From positions 1 to 20,217 of IMG/VR virus record IMGVR_UViG_3300042545_000804: DNA of 20,217 nucleotides. One strand, given 5' to 3'. The notes below the pieces were generated by a model, which saw only the letters and a program-made list of their open reading frames with translations, was not told the origin of the DNA and made no database searches. Of the stretch, positions 10,709 through 19,765 are shown one piece after another. The DNA comes from a virus. The translations under genes and the position numbers were made by a program. Each line of letters begins with the position of its first letter. Position 1 is the stretch's first letter.

Positions 10709-10738
10709 GCGACTTTGATTATAGGGGGTAGGTGTCAA
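10709..10738 (-). promoter_or_regulatory. Second copy of the TTGACA-N9-TATAAT motif, before the HTH gene
   Basis: Minus strand: TTGACA (10738-10733) overlaps the TGA stop of the terminase, then nine bases, then TATAAT (10723-10718), then nine bases to the ATG at 10708. Hexamers and spacing are identical to the copy at 4382-4408, and both stretches begin TTGACACC and contain CCTATAAT followed by AA within two bases. Recurrence at two gene starts argues for function; the short spacing argues against ordinary sigma70 use. Confidence 0.55.
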
Positions 10739-12444
10739 TAGCAGCCTCCTCCTCGGGTGCGGAGGGATTCTGGATCCACATATTCGACATCTCTGGCGAG
10801 AACGATGTAGCGGAGAACATCGATCCAGTCTTTGGTTGCGCCGTGTTTGCCGTCTTTGCCGGTCCAAGTTTTAAGCGAGTAGATGAGGTTTTTGCACCGC
10901 TCGCTGATGTAGAGCCTCGGGGAGTTGTCAGACCCAAGCGGCCGCTCCTCGTCGAAGGCGAGCCAATCGTTGATGATGCCGACGCCTTCGGTGATGGCTT
11001 TGCCGGAGGTGGCCTTGAAGTCTAAGCCCATACGGTCGTCGCATTGTTCGATGAGGGTGCGAACGCCTTCCTCCGTCATGGTGGGCGTATTGCCGTAGCG
11101 AGAATCCATCCAGCGTTCTTCGACCTTGGCGATTTCATCGGCTTTCTCAGCAGCCTCGATGACGGCTTTGTATTCTTTGAATCCAAACCAGCAGCAGGCT
11201 TTTTGTGCGGGACCAGGGCGGCCGTCTTCGAGCTTGCCATCGGCCTCAGCCCACGGGCCGGGGTAGCCGACGCCTTCGATGTATTCCAGTTGGTTTGGCC
11301 ATTCGCGGTAAATCCAACAACGGTTGTCTGGAGTGAATCGAATCCACAACATGGCCCACGCTTTGCCTTCGCCGGGATCGACGAAATGGAAGACGGTTCC
11401 CTCCTTGGGAATTTTGTCGTGCGGGACGACATGCACATTCTCGCGAAATTTGGGAAACATCGACATCCGCGCCTTGGTCGGCACGCCGTAGGCACGCATC
11501 AAGATTCGCTCGCGGTTGCTGCCGCGCAGCTCGGTCTCCATGGCCTCGGGGTTGCCGTAGGGGTTGTCGGAGGTGTGGAAATAAACGACGCGGGCTTTTT
11601 CCCTGGTGCATTGCTGGATGCGCGGCACTTGCTCCACGCCGATCAGGCTGCCCTCGCGGTAGCGCGGCAGGAGCGGGGCGTCGCATTCCTCCAGCGTCTT
11701 TGCGCCGTCGAGGTATTCTTTGACGGTGGTCGTGTAACCCTCAATCGGCGTGAAGCCAATACCCAGCTCTCCATCTCGCGTGAGCAAACGGAAACGCAGC
11801 GCCTCCAGCCAATCGGGCGTCACCAATTCATCCGCCCATACGAAATCCAACTCCGAGCCTTCGATGCTGGTGACATCCATGGAGTAGAATTTGAACCAAC
11901 ACTGCGAGCCATTCGGGAGAACGAACGAGTTCTCGGTGAAACCACCCTTCTGCGAGTAGGTGATATTTGCCACCGCGCCCTTCTTGAGCTTGCCGCTTGC
12001 GGAAGGCTTCCATTCTTTCGGCAGATACTCCCACAAATAAGGCTGCTGACTCTGAATCGAAGCGGCCTCCGTGCTTTGCAGGCACCACACCTTTGCGCCG
12101 GGCTTATTGACCAGGTGTTGCATGGCCCGCCGCGCATAGTAGCGCGACTTGCCGGAGCGGTTGCCGCCGAGGATGAGAAGCTCGGTGACGCCCTTGGGAA
12201 AAAGCGCACGCAACTCCGAGAACCCCGCATCCGCCCGCGCCCAAGCGGGATTCTCCCACCCGTAGCGCCACGGATCTTCCACCATGCGGGCAATCTGCTC
12301 CTCCCGCTCGCGGTGGATGGCGAGCAACTGCGCCTCAGTGGCTCCCAGGCGTTGCCCCCGATACTGCACCACAAAGGTGCCGTCCGGCCGGCGGCCCTCG
12401 ATGACGATTTCTGGAATGACCGGGCTTTTAGTTTGAGGAATCAT
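10735..12444 (-). CDS. terL: Terminase large subunit, 569 aa
   Basis: The packaging motor ATPase and nuclease. Walker A is ILGGNRSGKS at residues 91-100, and Walker B with its catalytic glutamate is LDFVWADEL at 199-207. The C-terminal RNase H-like nuclease has acidic residues in HFVDPGEGKA (D355), RWMDSRYGN (D447) and KDWIDVLRY (D541), as expected for the metal-binding triad that cuts the concatemer. It docks on the portal to drive DNA into the prohead. The ATG at 12444 overlaps the TGA of the preceding 60-codon gene by four bases, without a clear Shine-Dalgarno. Family identity is firm; packaging mode (pac or cos) cannot be told. Confidence 0.95.
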   Translation of the reverse strand: MIPQTKSPVIPEIVIEGRRPDGTFVVQYRGQRLGATEAQLLAIHREREEQIARMVEDPWRYGWENPAWARADAGFSELRALFPKGVTELLILGGNRSGKSRYYARRAMQHLVNKPGAKVWCLQSTEAASIQSQQPYLWEYLPKEWKPSASGKLKKGAVANITYSQKGGFTENSFVLPNGSQCWFKFYSMDVTSIEGSELDFVWADELVTPDWLEALRFRLLTRDGELGIGFTPIEGYTTTVKEYLDGAKTLEECDAPLLPRYREGSLIGVEQVPRIQQCTREKARVVYFHTSDNPYGNPEAMETELRGSNRERILMRAYGVPTKARMSMFPKFRENVHVVPHDKIPKEGTVFHFVDPGEGKAWAMLWIRFTPDNRCWIYREWPNQLEYIEGVGYPGPWAEADGKLEDGRPGPAQKACCWFGFKEYKAVIEAAEKADEIAKVEERWMDSRYGNTPTMTEEGVRTLIEQCDDRMGLDFKATSGKAITEGVGIINDWLAFDEERPLGSDNSPRLYISERCKNLIYSLKTWTGKDGKHGATKDWIDVLRYIVLARDVEYVDPESLRTRGGGCY

Positions 12445-12623
12445 GGGCGGGCAGGCTTGAGTTCATTTTCATGCAGGCTCAACCAGGCGACGGCTTTGCC
12501 AGCATCGCCGACATCATCGACCGTCACACAGAGGTCGGAGATAACCCCGGCGTCTTGGAGAAGGTTCAGCGCATGGGTGGCATCGATCCGGCGGTGAGCA
12601 ATGTAATCGCGCAGGGAGTTCAT
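12441..12623 (-). CDS. Small hypothetical protein upstream of the terminase, 60 aa
   Basis: The protein reads MNSLRDYIAHRRIDATHALN and then LLQDAGVISDLCVTVDDVGD, ending HENELKPARP. It is short and mixed alpha/beta. The ATG at 12623 is one base after the TAA of the zinc-ribbon gene, and the stop overlaps the terminase ATG. It could be a terminase partner such as a small subunit, but no HTH or coiled coil is obvious. Family not recognised. Confidence 0.7.
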   Translation of the reverse strand: MNSLRDYIAHRRIDATHALNLLQDAGVISDLCVTVDDVGDAGKAVAWLSLHENELKPARP

Positions 12624-12624
12624 G

Positions 12625-12765
12625 TTATTTCCCGCAGTTGGGACATATCGCTTTCCCGTATGAGGTGTAATTGACCGACGATCCACATCGGTGACAAAAC
12701 CCGATAAAGTTAATCAGTTTACGCCAATAATAGCGCACCCGATAGCCAATAATAGTAAAACTCAT
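12625..12765 (-). CDS. Small zinc-ribbon protein, 46 aa
   Basis: The protein starts MSFTIIGYRVRYYWRKLINF, which is basic and partly hydrophobic. It then has CHRC, a spacer of about 13 residues, and CPNC, ending GK, a compact zinc ribbon with two Cys-X2-Cys knuckles. Such ribbons bind nucleic acid or host proteins. It is the last gene behind the shared junction element and the only one that does not itself end in KEGAK/E. The start at 12765 overlaps the TGA of its neighbour by four bases and uses the Shine-Dalgarno AAGGAGG. Confidence 0.75.
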   Translation of the reverse strand: MSFTIIGYRVRYYWRKLINFIGFCHRCGSSVNYTSYGKAICPNCGK

Positions 12766-13163
12766 TCCGCGCCCTCCTTGAGTTTTGGCATCCACGCTAT
12801 GTAAGCAATCCACACGAAATTCTCGTCTTCGTCGCTACCCCGTCTGGTGACTCCGTATATTTTATCAAGCTCAAGCGGCTCGATCATTCCCGGCCAATTC
12901 AGACCTCCAGTTCTTGCAAGGATTAGCAGCCCTTTTTCGACTGAGGCCATGTCCACATTTACGGGTTCTATGCGCCAGTTTCCATTTCCTCCTGTGATGT
13001 AGTCTTCATCAGTGGACATTCTTAAGTGCATATTCTGGATAGTCCCTTCATTTGTATTCTTCCGATCCATCTTCCACACTTCAATGACTTTCCCTCTGGG
13101 ATTGTCGTAGTCGTTACCCCATTCGGGTTCTTTTTGGATTGCGATTTCGTAGTTATCACTCAT
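12762..13163 (-). CDS. Accessory protein of the junction-element array, 133 aa
   Basis: The protein begins MSDNYEIAIQKEPEWGNDYD. It is acidic and beta-rich, with tracts such as GNGNWRIEPVNVDMASVEKG and FVWIAYIAWMPK, and ends in the array's KLKEGAE tail. No signal peptide or catalytic motif is seen. The ATG is preceded by AAGGAGGGCGCGAA and overlaps the upstream stop by four bases. Its place among other unrelated tiny genes suggests a host-takeover or anti-defence accessory factor; that is inference. I do not recognise the family. Confidence 0.75.
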   Translation of the reverse strand: MSDNYEIAIQKEPEWGNDYDNPRGKVIEVWKMDRKNTNEGTIQNMHLRMSTDEDYITGGNGNWRIEPVNVDMASVEKGLLILARTGGLNWPGMIEPLELDKIYGVTRRGSDEDENFVWIAYIAWMPKLKEGAE

Positions 13164-13780
13164 TTCGCGCCCTCCTTGGAGAATTTAAAATTCTGGCAAA
13201 ACAGAGTCAGCGTTGCCGTGTCTTTGTAAAAGCGATCTGCAATATCCTCGCTCCAATTTTTGCGATCGCCGAACCATGCCTGGTAATGAACGCGCAGCCA
13301 TTCCAATGCACGATCCGGGTGAAGCCTTGCCCTCGCCTCGTCGAGTCGGCGCTTGGTTTCTTCATAAGCATTTATCCTGTTCAGTATTTCGTTGACTATT
13401 TGCTGCGATGGATCGGTTCCGGCTCTCCGATGCTCAACTAATTTTTCTTCATCCAGCGTAATGGGCACACGAATGATTGTTTTTTGTCTCTCGTCGCGAA
13501 TTGTCCCCCAATCGTCAGACGGTCCACGCGAATGGGAAAGTTCACCCTGCCAAGGTTTTGCTGGTGATTCTATGTCTGGTGTTGGTCTGCTCATTTTGTT
13601 TCCTCCCACTTCCTCATTAGAAAATATGAGTTTCCAATCAGGGCAGGTTTCATCGTATTTTTTAATTTCTTTGTGCAGTCTGCAAAAGACTGGTGCTGCA
13701 TGGAAAATAGTGACTGATCCGCCGTGGTCACACCACTCACAGATGCGAGGAGCATTGCATTTTTCAGTCGTCTCGCTCAT
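13160..13780 (-). CDS. Two-part accessory protein with N-terminal cysteine cluster, 206 aa
   Basis: Residues 1-62 hold a probable metal site: CEWC near 14-17, then a Cys near 33 and a Cys near 46 (DETCPDWK). Residues 63-206 start with MSRPTPDIESPAKPWQGE and turn mainly helical, with VEHRRAGTDPSQQIVNEI and YEETKRRLDEARARL, and end SKEGAK. Before Met63 (ATG at 13594) the codons give GGGAGG seven bases upstream, so a second, shorter product could be made from the same mRNA. The protein may be a fusion of two array modules. Function unknown. Confidence 0.75.
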   Translation of the reverse strand: MSETTEKCNAPRICEWCDHGGSVTIFHAAPVFCRLHKEIKKYDETCPDWKLIFSNEEVGGNKMSRPTPDIESPAKPWQGELSHSRGPSDDWGTIRDERQKTIIRVPITLDEEKLVEHRRAGTDPSQQIVNEILNRINAYEETKRRLDEARARLHPDRALEWLRVHYQAWFGDRKNWSEDIADRFYKDTATLTLFCQNFKFSKEGAK

Positions 13781-14025
13781 TTCGCGCCCTCCTTGAGTTG
13801 GTCGAGTTCGGCGTCCCAATTTTTCGTCACGGAGAAAGTTAGGGTAGCGCAAACGACCTGAAGTTCCTGATAAAACTCGTTTCCACCTTTAGCCCGCAAC
13901 TTACCCATTGACGCCTCAGCTTCCCACTTCGTAAGTTCAAACCCGAGAGTTATGGGTAATTCGCGATTTTCCACGATGGCGTAACCGTCCTGAGAAAAAT
14001 TCCGAGTTGATTGCCGTTCACTCAT
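13777..14025 (-). CDS. Accessory protein of the junction-element array, 82 aa
   Basis: The protein begins MSERQSTRNFSQDGYAIVEN. It is a small soluble mixed-fold protein with a central segment LTKWEAEASMGKLRAKGGNE and ends ELDQLKEGAK. Both ends follow the array rule: start MSE preceded by AAGGAGGGCGCGGA, and KEGAK tail. The family is not recognised. Confidence 0.72.
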   Translation of the reverse strand: MSERQSTRNFSQDGYAIVENRELPITLGFELTKWEAEASMGKLRAKGGNEFYQELQVVCATLTFSVTKNWDAELDQLKEGAK

Positions 14026-14276
14026 TCCGCGCCCTCCTTCCACTTGAATGTGGTGTTCCCTTTGTAGTCAGAAACCCATTCCGCAAATCCGAGCTTCACC
14101 GCTTCTGCTTTCGCTCGCTCCACACTGGACAATTCCTTTTTTCGATTGTGATAGAACACGAAAGGAATGGCGGGCCACACCAGCAGAATAAAAACGCACC
14201 AAACCAAGCAGGCGATCACACAAAGAGGCACTGCAAACACGCTTCCGACGGCATACCAAAACGGGCTGAGTCTCAT
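14022..14276 (-). CDS. Small membrane protein of the array, 84 aa
   Basis: Residues 5-40 are strongly hydrophobic (WYAVGSVFAVPLCVIACLVW, then CVFILLVWPAIPFVFY), enough for one or two membrane segments. A basic cytoplasmic-type stretch follows (HNRKKELSSVERAKAEAVKL), and the tail is KWKEGAE. The ATG at 14276 (MRLSPFWY) is used because it overlaps the upstream stop by four bases behind TTGGAGGGCGCGAA. A small phage membrane protein could act in superinfection exclusion or lysis control, but that is a guess. Confidence 0.75.
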   Translation of the reverse strand: MRLSPFWYAVGSVFAVPLCVIACLVWCVFILLVWPAIPFVFYHNRKKELSSVERAKAEAVKLGFAEWVSDYKGNTTFKWKEGAE

Positions 14277-14794
14277 TTCGCGCCCTCCAATTTTTCGTAA
14301 ATCCACTGGCCGTGAGGTGGTGGTAACTCACCTGCGCAGCCATCGTCGATCCACTGCGACATGGCATCACCGTGGGTTGCTGACCAGTTTTTTGAGTTTA
14401 TTCCCCATGTTCGAACAGAGAGCAATGCCTCTCGGAGTGTTTTGTTCTGCTCCCGCGCCTCGTCACGCTCTTCCTTAAGGGCTCGCGCCAATTTTACAGC
14501 CTCCTCGGTTACCGTCATAAGATGGCTGTTCGCTCCCTCCAACACTTTGTAAAGCTCTCGGCGAAATTCCAAGTCGGCTCGCGCCTCGTCGCGTTCTTGC
14601 TCATATAACTCACACTGCATGATTGTTTCCATGCGCCGTGTAATTGCTTCCTCGCGCTCGCGTTTTAAAACCAACAGTTCGTCTTTAATAATGGAAATCT
14701 CTGACACAGACAAAATAACCCAGTCTTTGTGGGCATTGTGTTTGTGCAACCACTCTGCTCTACGTTTAGCTTCTGCTGCATCTGTCTCACTCAT
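14273..14794 (-). CDS. Coiled-coil accessory protein, 173 aa
   Basis: Long heptad-like helices run from about residue 5 to 125 (REREEAITRRMETIMQCE, YEQERDEARADLEFRREL, and ALKEERDEAREQNKTLREAL). A mixed C-terminal part (GINSKNWSATHGDAMSQWID) and the tail YEKLEGAK follow. The ERDEA-type helix at residues 108-122 recurs in the next array gene upstream. This is typical of phage small early proteins with coiled coils and variable ends. Start MSETDAAEAK with the array ribosome site. Oligomeric or host-protein-binding role likely; identity unknown. Confidence 0.78.
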   Translation of the reverse strand: MSETDAAEAKRRAEWLHKHNAHKDWVILSVSEISIIKDELLVLKREREEAITRRMETIMQCELYEQERDEARADLEFRRELYKVLEGANSHLMTVTEEAVKLARALKEERDEAREQNKTLREALLSVRTWGINSKNWSATHGDAMSQWIDDGCAGELPPPHGQWIYEKLEGAK

Positions 14795-15126
14795 TTCGCT
14801 CCCTCCTTGAGTTTGTTAAGTTCGGCGCGGAGCCTTAATCCTTCTTCTTTAATTTCTCGGACTGCAATTGCATCTGGCAAGCAAACTCTAACCACCATTC
14901 TCCAAACCGCTTTTTCCGCGATCTCGCGCAGCTTGGCGTTTTGTTCCAGCGCCTCGTCGCGCTCGCGCTCCAAATCAGGTAATTTAGCAATTCTGGAAGC
15001 TAAATCACACTCATCTCCGACTGTCTTTCCTCCGATTATCTGGGCAAAAATGTTGTAACCATCAGTGACGGCAAAACTTCCTTCTACTGGATATTCGGTT
15101 ACATACCATTCTGGTGTATCACTCAT
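14791..15126 (-). CDS. Accessory protein with coiled coil, 111 aa
   Basis: The N-terminal half (MSDTPEWYVTEYPVEGSFAV) is beta-like and aromatic. Residues 49-70 form a helix (LPDLERERDEALEQNAKLRE) almost the same as one in the 173-residue protein, and the end is LNKLKEGAK. The frame is bounded on both sides by array junctions. Phage early genes with this layout often bind host proteins; no specific function is seen. Confidence 0.75.
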   Translation of the reverse strand: MSDTPEWYVTEYPVEGSFAVTDGYNIFAQIIGGKTVGDECDLASRIAKLPDLERERDEALEQNAKLREIAEKAVWRMVVRVCLPDAIAVREIKEEGLRLRAELNKLKEGAK

Positions 15127-15338
15127 TTCGCGCCTTCCTTTCGTTTTTCTTCCATAAATCGATAAATCGATTCGGTGCTAACCCAAGCCAGCACTACGGC
15201 CAATCCAGTCAGCCACCATCCATTCCAAACAAGAAACGCCGCTACCAGCAGATTTCCGGCGCCAGCATTACCTCCAACTGCCGCCCAGACGAGCCAGGAA
15301 AAGGCTGTGTTTGTTAATACCCATGTTGTTATTCTCAT
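15123..15338 (-). CDS. Small membrane protein heading the array, 71 aa
   Basis: The sequence MRITTWVLTNTAFSWLVWAA is hydrophobic, followed by LLVAAFLVWNGWWLTGLAVV, giving two likely membrane segments. The tail is EEKRKEGAK. The ATG at 15338 (leader acataaatatt) is preferred. An in-frame ATG at 15413 would add 25 residues, 10 of them encoded by a dispersed CACAGAG repeat. A bilayer-located host-interaction role is plausible. Confidence 0.72.
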   Translation of the reverse strand: MRITTWVLTNTAFSWLVWAAVGGNAGAGNLLVAAFLVWNGWWLTGLAVVLAWVSTESIYRFMEEKRKEGAK

Positions 15339-15380
15339 AATATTTATGTTGTGAATGGTTGTAGAAATGCCGAGGCGTTT

Positions 15381-15410
15381 CTCCTCCGTGTTCTCTGTGT
15401 CCTCTGTGGT
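15381..15410 (-). repeat. Dispersed repeat of CACAGAG units (copy 1)
   Basis: Minus strand: ACCACAGAGGACACAGAGAA and then CACGGAGGAG. It has three 9-base units ((A)CACAGAGR), with the third varied. It falls in the gap between two small genes and would be read as TTEDTENTE if translated. I recall this repeat class from many bacterial genomes, often at gene starts; its function is unknown to me. Confidence 0.7.
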
Positions 15411-15655
15411 CATAGCTCGCTTTCAAAAGTTCGCGCCTTCACGATCAGCCGGCGGGCATTTTCCATGAGGTCGTAGAAAACCTCCTGCTCGCCGATGTCT
15501 CGGGTGTATTCCGGTGGTTTCACATAGGTGAGGACGGCGCGGAGGTTGGCGGCCAGCTCGACCGAGAGCTTGCAACAATGTGCAACGCCAGGGTGATCTT
15601 GCCACTCGCGGTGACAGGCGGGGCATGCTATCGCTGAATCAGATACTATTGTCAT
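15410..15655 (-). CDS. Small cysteine-containing protein, 81 aa
   Basis: The protein starts MTIVSDSAIACPACHREWQD and continues HPGVAHCCKLSVEL, giving Cys/His ligands (CPAC and HCC) that could hold one zinc. The rest is helical (EQEVFYDLMENARRLIVKAR). The ATG at 15655 follows a TATAAAT stretch with no Shine-Dalgarno; an in-frame ATG at 15739 is less likely because it has neither a ribosome site nor coupling. Function unknown; a nucleic-acid-binding adaptor is possible. Confidence 0.7.
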   Translation of the reverse strand: MTIVSDSAIACPACHREWQDHPGVAHCCKLSVELAANLRAVLTYVKPPEYTRDIGEQEVFYDLMENARRLIVKARTFESEL

Positions 15656-16092: not shown

Positions 16093-17460
16093 CTATTTCT
16101 GTCTTTCGTTCTGGTTGTTGCTGTAAGCCTTCTCGGTCACATTTTTGAAAAGGGTGTGCTGGCCGATGAAGTTCATTTTGATTTCCGGCGTCGGGCCGTT
16201 TCTTTGTTTTGCAAGGATGAGCAAGGTGTTGTGATCCATCGGCTCATCGTCGGCGTCGGATTTTTTCTTGTTTTTGTCCAGGCGGTGGATGAGGAGCACG
16301 GTGTCGGCGTCTTGCTCGATGCTGCCGGATTCGCGGAGGTTTGAGAGCTTTGGCTTGGAGCCTTCGTCGGCGTCGCGGTTCAGCTGCGCCAGAGCGATGA
16401 TGGGGATGTTGAGCTCCTTGGCCGTGGTCTTGAGCGCCTTGGAAATCTCGCTCACTTCCAGCGCCCGACTCTCGCCTGCCCGCTTGGAGGATCCGTGCAT
16501 GAATTGCAGGTAATCGACCACGATGAGGCCGAGGCCGTGCTGCGACTTGGCCCGCCTCGCCCGGCTGCGAAATTGCGCCACGGTGAGACCCGGCGTGTCG
16601 TCGAGGTAGAGCTTGCTCTGCACCAGCCGGGTGGCTGCGCCCGAGACATTCCCCATGGCTCTGCCGTCAAAAAACCCGTCGCGTGTGCGCTGGAGGTCCA
16701 AGCCTGCCTCGGAGCAGATCGCTCGAATCATCAACTCCGAGCTGGGCATTTCCACCGAAAAGACCAGCGTCGGCACGGCATTCTGCATGGCCGCGTGGAG
16801 GGCTATCTGCATGCCAAGCGCCGATTTGCCGCAGGCAGGGCGAGCGGCGATGACGATCATCTGCCCGCCGAGGAACCCGCCAGTCGAGCGGTCCAAGTCA
16901 TGGATGCCGGTCTCCAGGCCGACGGTCTCGCCTCGGGTGTGATACACCTTCTCGATATGCTCCACGGCGGCCAGCACGGCGTTTTTGCAGTGCGAGACGG
17001 GGTTTTCCCTTGTCGAGTGGTCGCGGAGGGCGTAGAGCGCCTGCTCGCAGCGCTCTTGGGCATCCTCCGTGGTGAGCGCATAGTCGTTTGCCGCCTCGGC
17101 CATGGCGAGGGCCGCTTGGCGCATGGCACGGCGTTTCCACACATCCAGCACCTCGGCAGCGTAGTGCCGCCAGTTCATCGTGATGGAGAGTTCCTGCACC
17201 AGCTCAGTCACATAGGCATAGCCGCCGCACTCATCAAGCTGGCCTACCTTCTCCAACTCGGTCGTGACCAGGATAAGGTCCACCGGCCGGGCAGCCTGCC
17301 GCATGGTGGCAACGATACCCATGATCGTCTGGTGCGCTGGTAAAGCAAACTGCTCGGGCGACAGCGCCTCCAGCACGCTATCCGCCGTGCGGCCATCGGT
17401 GATCGCCGCGCCGACCACGGCTTTTTCGGCGATTTGATTTTCGGGAAGGATGCTTTTCAT
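16093..17460 (-). CDS. dnaB: DnaB-like replicative helicase, 455 aa
   Basis: This unwinds DNA at the phage fork as a hexamer. The N-terminal domain starts PENQIAEKAVVGAAI and has the usual helical layout to about residue 150. The linker and C-terminal RecA-like domain carry Walker A ARPACGKS (206-213), the Walker B segment LIVVDYLQF (312-320), and the H4 motif region (LAQLNRDADEGSKPKLSNLR, then SGSIEQDADTVLLIHR). Length is normal for the family. The ATG at 17460 overlaps the TGA of the preceding gene by four bases. It follows an initiator-like gene, so loading onto the origin would be by that protein, as in other phages. Confidence in the family is high. Confidence 0.95.
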   Translation of the reverse strand: MKSILPENQIAEKAVVGAAITDGRTADSVLEALSPEQFALPAHQTIMGIVATMRQAARPVDLILVTTELEKVGQLDECGGYAYVTELVQELSITMNWRHYAAEVLDVWKRRAMRQAALAMAEAANDYALTTEDAQERCEQALYALRDHSTRENPVSHCKNAVLAAVEHIEKVYHTRGETVGLETGIHDLDRSTGGFLGGQMIVIAARPACGKSALGMQIALHAAMQNAVPTLVFSVEMPSSELMIRAICSEAGLDLQRTRDGFFDGRAMGNVSGAATRLVQSKLYLDDTPGLTVAQFRSRARRAKSQHGLGLIVVDYLQFMHGSSKRAGESRALEVSEISKALKTTAKELNIPIIALAQLNRDADEGSKPKLSNLRESGSIEQDADTVLLIHRLDKNKKKSDADDEPMDHNTLLILAKQRNGPTPEIKMNFIGQHTLFKNVTEKAYSNNQNERQK

Positions 17461-17786
17461 TTTCTTGGCAAACGGGAAGCAGCCATGGCCGTGGCTTTGC
17501 GGAGCGAGGATCCGAAGCCGAGAAGGCGGAAGACCTTGCAGCACACACTGGGGTTCGGCTCATAGCCGAGAAGGCGGAACTGCTCCGCCCCGTCCGCGCT
17601 CACCACCGGCGAGCCATCCGGATGCGTCATCGGCGTGTAAATGGGGTCATCCATAGGGCGGCTCTCGTAAGTGCCGACCTGCCAGCGGAGAAAGTCATTC
17701 ACAGCCTCCTCGTTATGTCGCGTCACGACGCACAGGAGCCCCAATTCGGTGGCTCTCGTTTCAAATGTTTCGATCATATTTATCAT
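17457..17786 (-). CDS. Small protein between initiator and helicase, 109 aa
   Basis: The protein begins MINMIETFETRATELGLLCV and has VVTRHNEEAVNDFLRWQVGT. An internal duplication at the C-terminal part gives FRLLG twice, 16 codons apart. Its place between the initiator-like and helicase genes suggests a loader or regulatory factor, but it has no P-loop and no family is recognised. Alternative starts are the GTG at 17834 (overlapping the upstream gene) and the second ATG at 17777. The A-rich leader (aaaaacaccaac) favours 17786. Confidence 0.65.
   Translation of the reverse strand: MINMIETFETRATELGLLCVVTRHNEEAVNDFLRWQVGTYESRPMDDPIYTPMTHPDGSPVVSADGAEQFRLLGYEPNPSVCCKVFRLLGFGSSLRKATAMAASRLPRK
17516..17579. 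repeat. 16-base direct repeat inside the small replication gene
   Basis: AGCCGAGAAGGCGGAA occurs at 17516-17531 and again at 17564-17579, exactly 48 bases apart, so the duplication stays in frame and yields the two FRLLG motifs. Confidence 0.8.
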
Positions 17787-18707: not shown

Positions 18708-18908
18708 TTATTTTTTCTTTCGATTTTGAAGCTGAGAGTCCCACCAGACGCTGCGCGTCCGGACGCCTCTTTTTTCCAGCCAGCGGTCGCAGGCAGCCGA
18801 GAACGCCCGGCTGTCGCGCACCGAGATCCACCCCACCCGTGCATCGTCCGGCCCGAGCGAGGGCACGCTCCGGTGTTGGCTGGACTTTTCGTAACCCTCC
18901 AGGCTCAC
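18708..18908 (-). CDS. Small GTG-start protein, 66 aa
   Basis: A GTG at 18908 overlaps the exonuclease stop by four bases (GTGA), with AGGAGG eight bases before it. The protein (SLEGYEKSSQHRSVPSLGPD, then RVGWISVRDSRAFSAACDRW) ends very basic with NRKKK. It could bind nucleic acid and act with the adjacent exonuclease or initiator. The alternative ATG at 18968 would overlap the exonuclease by 64 bases and lacks a ribosome site. Family not recognised. Confidence 0.65.
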   Translation of the reverse strand: MSLEGYEKSSQHRSVPSLGPDDARVGWISVRDSRAFSAACDRWLEKRGVRTRSVWWDSQLQNRKKK

Positions 18909-19489
18909 GCCACGGCCTCCTGTGTGCGCGGAGACATCTCGACAAGCCTCCGCAGGCGGTGGAAGCACGCCAGCGTCATCAGCGCATCCTCCAGCGCGTT
19001 GTGCGTCTTGCCAGATCGGGAGAAGCCCAGCGCCGCCGCAATGTGGTCCAGATTCAGCCGAGGCTGCCCATCCTTACCAACCGGCAGGGCAAGAGCCCCC
19101 ACCTCGTAGGCGAGCCACGCCGCCGCTTGCAGGTCCACCATCTTGCCCCTAGGCCAAGTCAGGAAATTGCGAGCAAAGGCCGCCCGCAGAAAGTCGCGGT
19201 CGAAGGCGACATTGCAGCCAGCCATCACCGAAAACCGGCGCGTGCCCAGCCACAAGGCGAGATCCTGCATCACATCCAGTTCCGGCCGCCCGTTTTTTTC
19301 CAGAAAATCGAGCGTAAAGCCATTCTTTGCCAGCGCCTCCGGCTCACAAATCCACTCGGCATTCGGCTTAATAATCGCAGTAAAAGCCTCGTTATCCGAG
19401 GAATCCACCGCCGCCACGCTAAGAAGCGCATTCTTCGAGGGGTCAAAGCCCCCCGTCTCCACATCAATGACAATCAATCGCGTCTTCAT
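18905..19489 (-). CDS. DEDDh 3'-5' exonuclease, 194 aa
   Basis: ExoI motif is VIDVETGG (D9, E11). ExoII is NVAFDRDF (D97). ExoIII is HNALEDAL (H163, D168). This is the full acidic metal site of DnaQ/RNase T-like exonucleases. Such enzymes trim DNA or RNA 3' ends and may proofread or degrade host nucleic acid. The start at 19489 is certain: it overlaps the DUF551-like gene's stop by four bases and has AAGGAGG four bases before the ATG. It is a stand-alone exonuclease, not fused to a polymerase, and no DNA polymerase is seen in this window. Confidence 0.9.
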   Translation of the reverse strand: MKTRLIVIDVETGGFDPSKNALLSVAAVDSSDNEAFTAIIKPNAEWICEPEALAKNGFTLDFLEKNGRPELDVMQDLALWLGTRRFSVMAGCNVAFDRDFLRAAFARNFLTWPRGKMVDLQAAAWLAYEVGALALPVGKDGQPRLNLDHIAAALGFSRSGKTHNALEDALMTLACFHRLRRLVEMSPRTQEAVA

Positions 19490-19500
19490 TTCGCCTCCTT
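19486..19500 (-). promoter_or_regulatory. Ribosome site at the DUF551/exonuclease overlap
   Basis: AAGGAGGCGAAATGA on the minus strand. It is a shorter relative of the array junction element and forces the upstream protein to end KEAK. Confidence 0.8.
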
Positions 19501-19704
19501 CGGTGGATTCGGCAACGGCATCCAATGCAAAACCCGCTCCTCGTCGTGAATGCGAGCCCCAAGAACATTGCGCCAGACAGCCGTGCCGTCGTTCCACGCG
19601 ACATCGCCGTCGAGGAATCCCGTCCAAACATCACCACCCAGCGTGTGAATGATGACCGTCTCGCCGTCATCAGGAAGCGTCACTGAAGCATTCCGCCACT
19701 TCAT
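19486..19704 (-). CDS. DUF551-like small protein, 72 aa
   Basis: Residues read MKWRNASVTLPDDGETVIIH and end VLHWMPLPNPPKEAK. The combination of a start like W...LP.DG..V and the terminal HWMPLP.PP motif is the signature of DUF551, a small family common in phages and of unknown role. The ATG at 19704 matches the usual family start. An in-frame ATG at 19740 would prepend 12 residues, most encoded by a dispersed CACAGAG repeat. The stop overlaps the exonuclease start. Confidence 0.85.
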   Translation of the reverse strand: MKWRNASVTLPDDGETVIIHTLGGDVWTGFLDGDVAWNDGTAVWRNVLGARIHDEERVLHWMPLPNPPKEAK

Positions 19705-19731
19705 CTCCGTGTCCTCTGTGTTCTCTGTGGT
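19705..19731 (-). repeat. Dispersed repeat of CACAGAG units (copy 2)
   Basis: Minus strand: ACCACAGAGAACACAGAGGA then CACGGAG, directly abutting the DUF551-like ATG. It matches copy 1 at 15381-15410 except where the A/G at the unit boundaries is swapped. The embedded GAGG and GGAG may double as a poor ribosome site. It has been inserted or kept in the leader of this gene. Confidence 0.7.
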
Positions 19732-19765
19732 TATTTTCATTTTTTCGGGGCCGTTTTTTTTTGCT

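Follow-up and report, generated by a model that had tools for sequence, protein, structure and literature searches.

The nin region of the phages lambda and P22 has been described as a 'chain of interlinked genes' (Kroger and Hobom 1982, in PMC8022706). In the excerpts of this source, non-essential small genes form an ATGA chain in which the ribosome site lies within the upstream gene, and the region is located 3' of the replication genes and varies between relatives. For lambdoid mosaicism, the boundary-sequence model (Susskind and Botstein 1978; Clark et al. 2001 for HK620; PMC3233612, PMC3029335) holds, according to extracts of these sources, that homologous recombination at short conserved intergene sequences puts module borders at gene borders; the same extracts state that most mosaic borders lack such sequences. 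Start Associated Sequences, reported from Cluster K mycobacteriophages and Cluster EF Microbacterium phages (PMC3203893, PMC7302621), are characterized in the relevant portion of PMC3203893 as over-conserved ribosome-site repeats. Here we analyze an array of small genes in the 20,217-base virus record IMGVR_UViG_3300042545_000804 (IMG/VR; the whole stretch is called the window), in which successive genes are joined by an 18-base linker element, AAGGAGGGCGCGAAATGA.

Seven copies of the linker were found in the window, all of them minus-strand, within 12762-15140 and at successive ATGA junctions, with no mismatch in two copies, one in four and two in one, while shuffled sequences gave an expectation of 0.01; no further copy is present in the rest of the window. 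The codons AAG GAG GGC GCG AAA TGA provide the KEGAK end and the stop of the upstream gene, the overlapping ATG A.. opens the downstream gene, and the ribosome site AAGGAGG (Shine-Dalgarno sequence) lies inside the linker, well spaced from the next ATG. At every copy the upstream open reading frame ends in KEGAK, KEGAE or LEGAK. The preliminary description of this locus, which had proposed seven near-identical junctions that are at once gene end, Shine-Dalgarno sequence and next start, and an AT-richer cassette region, is thus borne out at each copy and in composition, the content of guanine and cytosine being 48.6% in 12762-15126 vs 58.5% in the rest of the window. Its statement that CTC and GTGA flanks are kept needs correction: CTC flanks only 3/7 copies and GYGA follows ATGA in 5/7, and across relatives, counted once per gene-family pair, both flanks show enrichment without being invariant (CTC 16% vs 2%, ATGAGYGA 29% vs 5%).

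The array resembles the nin region in its ATGA overlaps, in its ribosome sites within the upstream gene, in its position 3' of replication genes and in its variation between relatives. It differs in uniformity, since the 14 bases before ATGA share on average 5.3/14 positions in lambda nin and 12.4/14 at the seven array junctions; nin homologues were not found among the cassettes over PHROG or Pfam cut-offs. In contrast to the boundary-sequence model, one linker here serves many junctions, is coding on both sides and is common to phages with unrelated terminases. Like Start Associated Sequences, the element is repeated in one orientation at the ribosome-site position, within a few nucleotides of the starts of non-structural genes of different families. 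The Start Associated Sequence consensus in the published extracts is of a 13-bp (base pair) GGGATAGGAGCCC type, from which the linker differs outside AGGAG; in those extracts the repeats are mostly not described as encoding the end of the upstream protein, and cassette breakpoints are not described. In the array the ATGA chain and the boundary-sequence idea come together, with a linker that is dual-coding and unusually uniform.

The idea would have failed, according to the preliminary description, if all genes of the phage used the same junction. Among the other ATGA junctions of the window, nine in number, only 3.2/14 preceding bases are shared on average, vs the 12.4/14 of the array; a junction common to all genes of this phage is thereby dismissed as the explanation, and so is a phage-wide codon or ribosome-site bias.

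Other recurring junctions were also noted. A shorter one of similar type, GAAGGAGGCGAAATGAA (..KEAK / MK..), links genes in the replication region (window 18905-19627, minus strand; 5052 and 5270 in the relative L127). Another, AAGAAATCCAAATGAACTC (..KKSK / MNS..), lies upstream of the MNSLRDYI gene (L129 8332, L131 536, L146 7113) and, in terminase relatives, precedes nearly always this one gene family.

A terminase search yielded 93 relatives, of which 80 with 80-99% identity were kept. The array is bounded by a DnaB-like helicase on one side and the terminase on the other, and this interval is hypervariable among the relatives. L127, whose terminase is 99% identical, has one element and 0/6 of the window cassettes between the flanking genes; four copies are present in each of L144 and L210 and three in L145, most relatives carry zero to five, and the seven of the window are an extreme. 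The complete array is retained in L076, a 99.6% identical contig. The piece starting at element 3 stands before two other shared pieces in the window and after them in L210, where it abuts the zinc-ribbon border gene. Gene order and content are not kept among relatives; their being kept, with freely drifting junctions, had been named in advance as a result that would speak against exchange. The same cassettes were found beside different neighbours in other phages at 77-97% DNA identity, including phages with unrelated terminases. The first ~160 bp of cassette 2 recur behind the element in L008 and L035, and cassette 5 has portions in common with L210, L085 and L125. Cassette 3 is a chimera of the head of one gene and the tail of another, joined near 14111-14127, which are separate genes in L210.

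The breakpoints are seen most directly at the zinc-ribbon border gene, which was compared among six phages. In 14 of the 15 pairs the 60 bp before the element are at background identity (17-30%), while the element is 83-100% identical and the next 60 bp are 83-98% identical; in the remaining pair the upstream gene is unchanged. The same switch was observed for the 'MKxSPFWYA' gene, including L009 and L072 from outside the terminase-recruited set. Ends of BLAST blocks over 163 non-redundant loci gave a similar picture: left ends cluster at the opening base of the element, -15 to -12 relative to the ATG, vs -5 to 0 at other ATGA junctions. Right ends peak at +3 to +10 of the ATG at element junctions, but little weight can be placed on those at +4, as the element belongs to the upstream gene, and the argument is carried by the left ends. 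Element junctions have 0.75-0.87 unique block ends each, other ATGA junctions 0.32 and the background 0.085, so that the density of ends at the element edges is ~9-10 times the background and more than twice that of other ATGA junctions. One-sided breaks make up 76% of the comparisons at the element vs 39% at other ATGA junctions (46%, in pooled pairs, at those no more than 2.5 kilobases (kb) from an element).

In comparisons that pair a common downstream gene with unrelated upstream genes, the junction is retained in 166/250 cases at the element, vs 31/275 at other GGAGG junctions and 198/3467 at the rest (Fisher's test, 1e-8 and 7e-26, respectively), a pattern seen in twelve downstream families. 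Homology starts or ends at a conserved sequence, as the boundary-sequence model expects, and, in the full set of loci, both parents carry that sequence at the switch point. Alignments, block ends and retention counts agree with the earlier expectation that breakpoints between relatives fall at the element.

The best-supported reading of these breakpoints is short-homology exchange at the linker. Sequence comparison shows that related phages have swapped unrelated genes on both of its sides, homology switching at its edges, and we infer that the phage makes active use of it. Our preferred explanation, with a probability of about 0.68, is that the linker has a dual purpose, providing both translational coupling and short homology for cassette exchange, and that it perhaps stems from tandem genes with PETDA heads. 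Coupled translation at ATGA overlaps with an internal ribosome site is established in other operons. The overlap and the strong internal Shine-Dalgarno sequence would lead to coupled termination and reinitiation, and a cassette between two linkers would be translated from a single early transcript without needing its own promoter. The shared 18 bp, extended to as many as 37 bp in cases of a common upstream tail, would serve as short homology for recombination with co-infecting phages or prophages, and gain, loss, reordering and chimeras would be the outcome.

Several points weigh against a dual-purpose linker. All sequences are metagenome contigs with genes called by a simple purpose-written caller, many loci were recruited by the motif itself, ordinary ATGA junctions are likewise frequent breakpoints, some breaks fall within genes, and, for general recombination, 18 bp is a short length. 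When only terminase-recruited loci are considered, retention at the element (10/14) differs from the rest of the junctions (p=0.001) and not from the other GGAGG junctions (14/28, p=0.32), so that the case rests on the explicit alignments, the block ends and the controls instead. RecT, Erf, Sak4-like AAA_24 and Rad52 all went undetected in 13 long contigs of the window's clade. Rad52-like phage recombinases with relaxed recombination also give mosaic fragments with short flanking homologies (PMC3945230). That system differs in that the longest perfect stretches tested were 11-298 bp within long diverged homologies, whereas isolated stretches of 18-37 bp are found here, and its recombinase was not found in the clade of the window. 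Among carriers of the element, RecT was detected in one, Erf in two, AAA_24 over the cut-off in two and Rad52 in none. A phage annealing protein was rejected as the agent in this clade, the matches being scattered and in other carriers; exchange there would have to rely on host functions or on a protein that escaped detection.

The array might instead reflect a favoured ribosome site and a C-terminal tail kept for coupling, with genes arriving by illegitimate recombination and selection retaining in-frame joins. Breaks at gene boundaries do occur at junctions without the element, GGAGG at 7 nucleotides is the commonest ATGA spacing in these phages (276 cases), and near variants of the spacer (GCGGGAA, ACGCGAA) exist. 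The spacer GCGCGAA, whose first enrichment (106/276) was inflated by motif-based recruiting, is nevertheless found in 12/114 GGAGG-N7 junctions, at 12 different gene pairs, after removal of one recruiting exact copy per locus, far above the 0.8% expected from the other spacers; in terminase-recruited loci it occupies 10/75. Two composition-matched control spacers gave 41 and 5 contigs, each single-copy, vs at least 119 contigs for the element in the same scan, 14 of them with two or more exact copies. With the shuffled expectation, these controls rule out a chance origin of the copies. As this sequence is also lacking at the phage's nine other ATGA junctions and genes with unrelated bodies share up to 19 more bases upstream of the element, we consider selection on a ribosome site unlikely as the whole explanation. 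A regulatory role like that in Cluster K, with a protein or RNA binding the motif to control early-gene translation and conservation reflecting that binding, would account for its fixed position, its presence in a non-structural region, its conservation past ribosome-site needs (PMC3203893) and its single strand (58/59 loci with several copies have all on one strand). It would not explain why the element codes for the upstream gene, moves between unrelated gene pairs and marks breakpoints; no linked extended motif or stem was seen, although none was searched for, and this role appears improbable.

Tandem duplication of one gene, with copies diverged past recognition, would require no exchange between phages. 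The common MS[DE] heads and KEGAK tails fit such a history, as do the element-joined tandem PETDA genes of L047 and L111, and duplication may still explain where the linker came from. As an account of the array it is very doubtful, since the same cassettes lie at 77-97% identity beside different neighbours even in unrelated-terminase phages, and the encoded proteins (zinc-ribbon, membrane-helix and coiled-coil) do not form a single family. Barely credible is an integron-like site-specific system with the element as its recombination site: the cassette behaviour and a tyrosine recombinase, present in the 13 long clade contigs, are compatible with it, but the element has no inverted arms by inspection, and the recombinase is not adjacent to the elements. 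At a distance of ~11 kb from them in G001 and G006, the two relatives in which the positions of both could be placed, it is more simply a prophage integrase.

The features of the array and its borders are listed in Table 1.

Table 1. Linker elements, cassettes and bordering genes in the window (aa, amino acids)
Feature	Position	Strand	Description	Basis
Linker element 1	15123..15140	-	AAGGAAGGCGCGAAATGA	1 mismatch
Linker element 2	14791..14808	-	AAGGAGGGAGCGAAATGA	motif search
Linker element 3	14273..14290	-	TTGGAGGGCGCGAAATGA	motif search
Linker element 4	14022..14039	-	AAGGAGGGCGCGGAATGA	motif search
Linker element 5	13777..13794	-	exact AAGGAGGGCGCGAAATGA	motif search
Linker element 6	13160..13177	-	exact	motif search
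Linker element 7	12762..12779	-	AAGGAGGGCGCGGAATGA	motif search
Array-opening gene	15123..15413	-	96 aa, head MTTEDTENTE..., end ..KEGAK in element 1	
Cassette 1	14791..15126	-	111 aa, MSDTPEWYV.. to ..LKEGAK, coiled-coil family 0	no PHROG/Pfam
Cassette 2	14273..14794	-	173 aa, coiled-coil, MSETDAAEAKRR.. to ..LEGAK	
Cassette 3	14022..14276	-	84 aa, membrane-helix-like head MRLSPFWYAVG.., tail ..TTFKWKEGAE	
Cassette 4	13777..14025	-	82 aa, MSERQSTRNF.. to ..AELDQLKEGAK	
Cassette 5	13160..13780	-	206 aa, MSETTEKCNAPR.. to ..SKEGAK	
Cassette 6	12762..13163	-	133 aa, MSDNYEIAIQK.. to ..LKEGAE	
Border gene	12625..12765	-	46 aa, zinc-ribbon-like, MSFTIIGYRV.., fixed 3' border of array	
MNSLRDYI gene	12441..12623	-	60 aa, MNSLRDYI.., conserved neighbour upstream of terminase	
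Terminase large subunit	10735..12444	-	used to recruit relatives	PHROG match of close L127 homologue
DnaB-like replicative helicase	16093..17544	-	conserved, 5' side of array	

None of the cassettes reached the reporting threshold in PHROGs, all their Pfam matches were under the curated cut-offs, and PADLOC gave two weak matches, both on one coiled-coil protein. The zinc-ribbon call for the border gene likewise relies on matches below curated cut-offs. A scan for promoters and terminators gave results near shuffle level. The genes between the linkers, called unrelated at first, include two that belong to one coiled-coil family (family 0). Of the proposed modular cassette system for the exchange of host-interaction genes, the cassette part found support and the host-interaction role did not, no PHROGs or Pfam assignment over the cut-off pointing to such a function. 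A dispersed repeat, ATGACCACAGAGGACACAGAGAACACGGAGG, was observed at 15380-15413 and 19708-19740 (both minus strand) and at 9237 in L127, and encodes in frame the gene heads MTTEDTENTE..; its reverse complement, CTGTGTCCTCTGTGGTCAA, sits just before the terminase start in many relatives.

The linker extends beyond the clade of the window. Among 45 element contigs, some of which are fragments, 40 had no match to the window terminase, several of these being 38-69 kb long. In 37 mostly long contigs the element, with at most two mismatches, occurs zero to five times each, and the reversed control was found once. A 22-base form of the element is absent from the bacterial genome contigs searched. 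In a search for the host via the terminase in bacterial genomes, 20 stretches fit the peptide pattern and 0 encoded a relative, and GenBank phages contained one terminase relative, at 32%.

Tandem genes with an MSDTPETDA head, a DQLKEGAK tail and a variable middle, joined by the element, were observed in L047 (119-1371) and L111 (4766-6077); they matched no database family over the cut-off. PETD heads are found in 18% of the genes after an element vs 1.8% of all genes. The tail of cassette 4 has 19 extra bases (AELDQL), ~37 nucleotides in total, in common with PETDA genes of L127, L145 and L111, the bodies being unrelated. Judging from these similarities, the linker may be what is left of the tips of tandem 'MSDTPETDA...AELDQLKEGAK' genes, derived from their head-to-tail junction, with the bodies replaced and the tips kept. 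Tentatively, and at somewhat less than even odds, one coding linker originating in PETDA tips might act as a common 'plug' for a set of phages whose packaging genes are unrelated, making the accessory genes that it flanks movable and expressed at once.

The array appears to be a clear natural example of a kind of viral gene shuffling that has been proposed but rarely documented, in which genes are gained, lost, reordered and swapped exactly at their junctions. It bears on the old question of how the borders of phage mosaics come to coincide with gene borders, for which two models exist, one invoking recombination at short boundary sequences, the other joining at random with later selection. 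As this system has dozens of borders that share one linker, sequence statistics can separate the models, and the linker itself can serve as a marker by which exchangeable accessory genes are recognized in uncultured phages.

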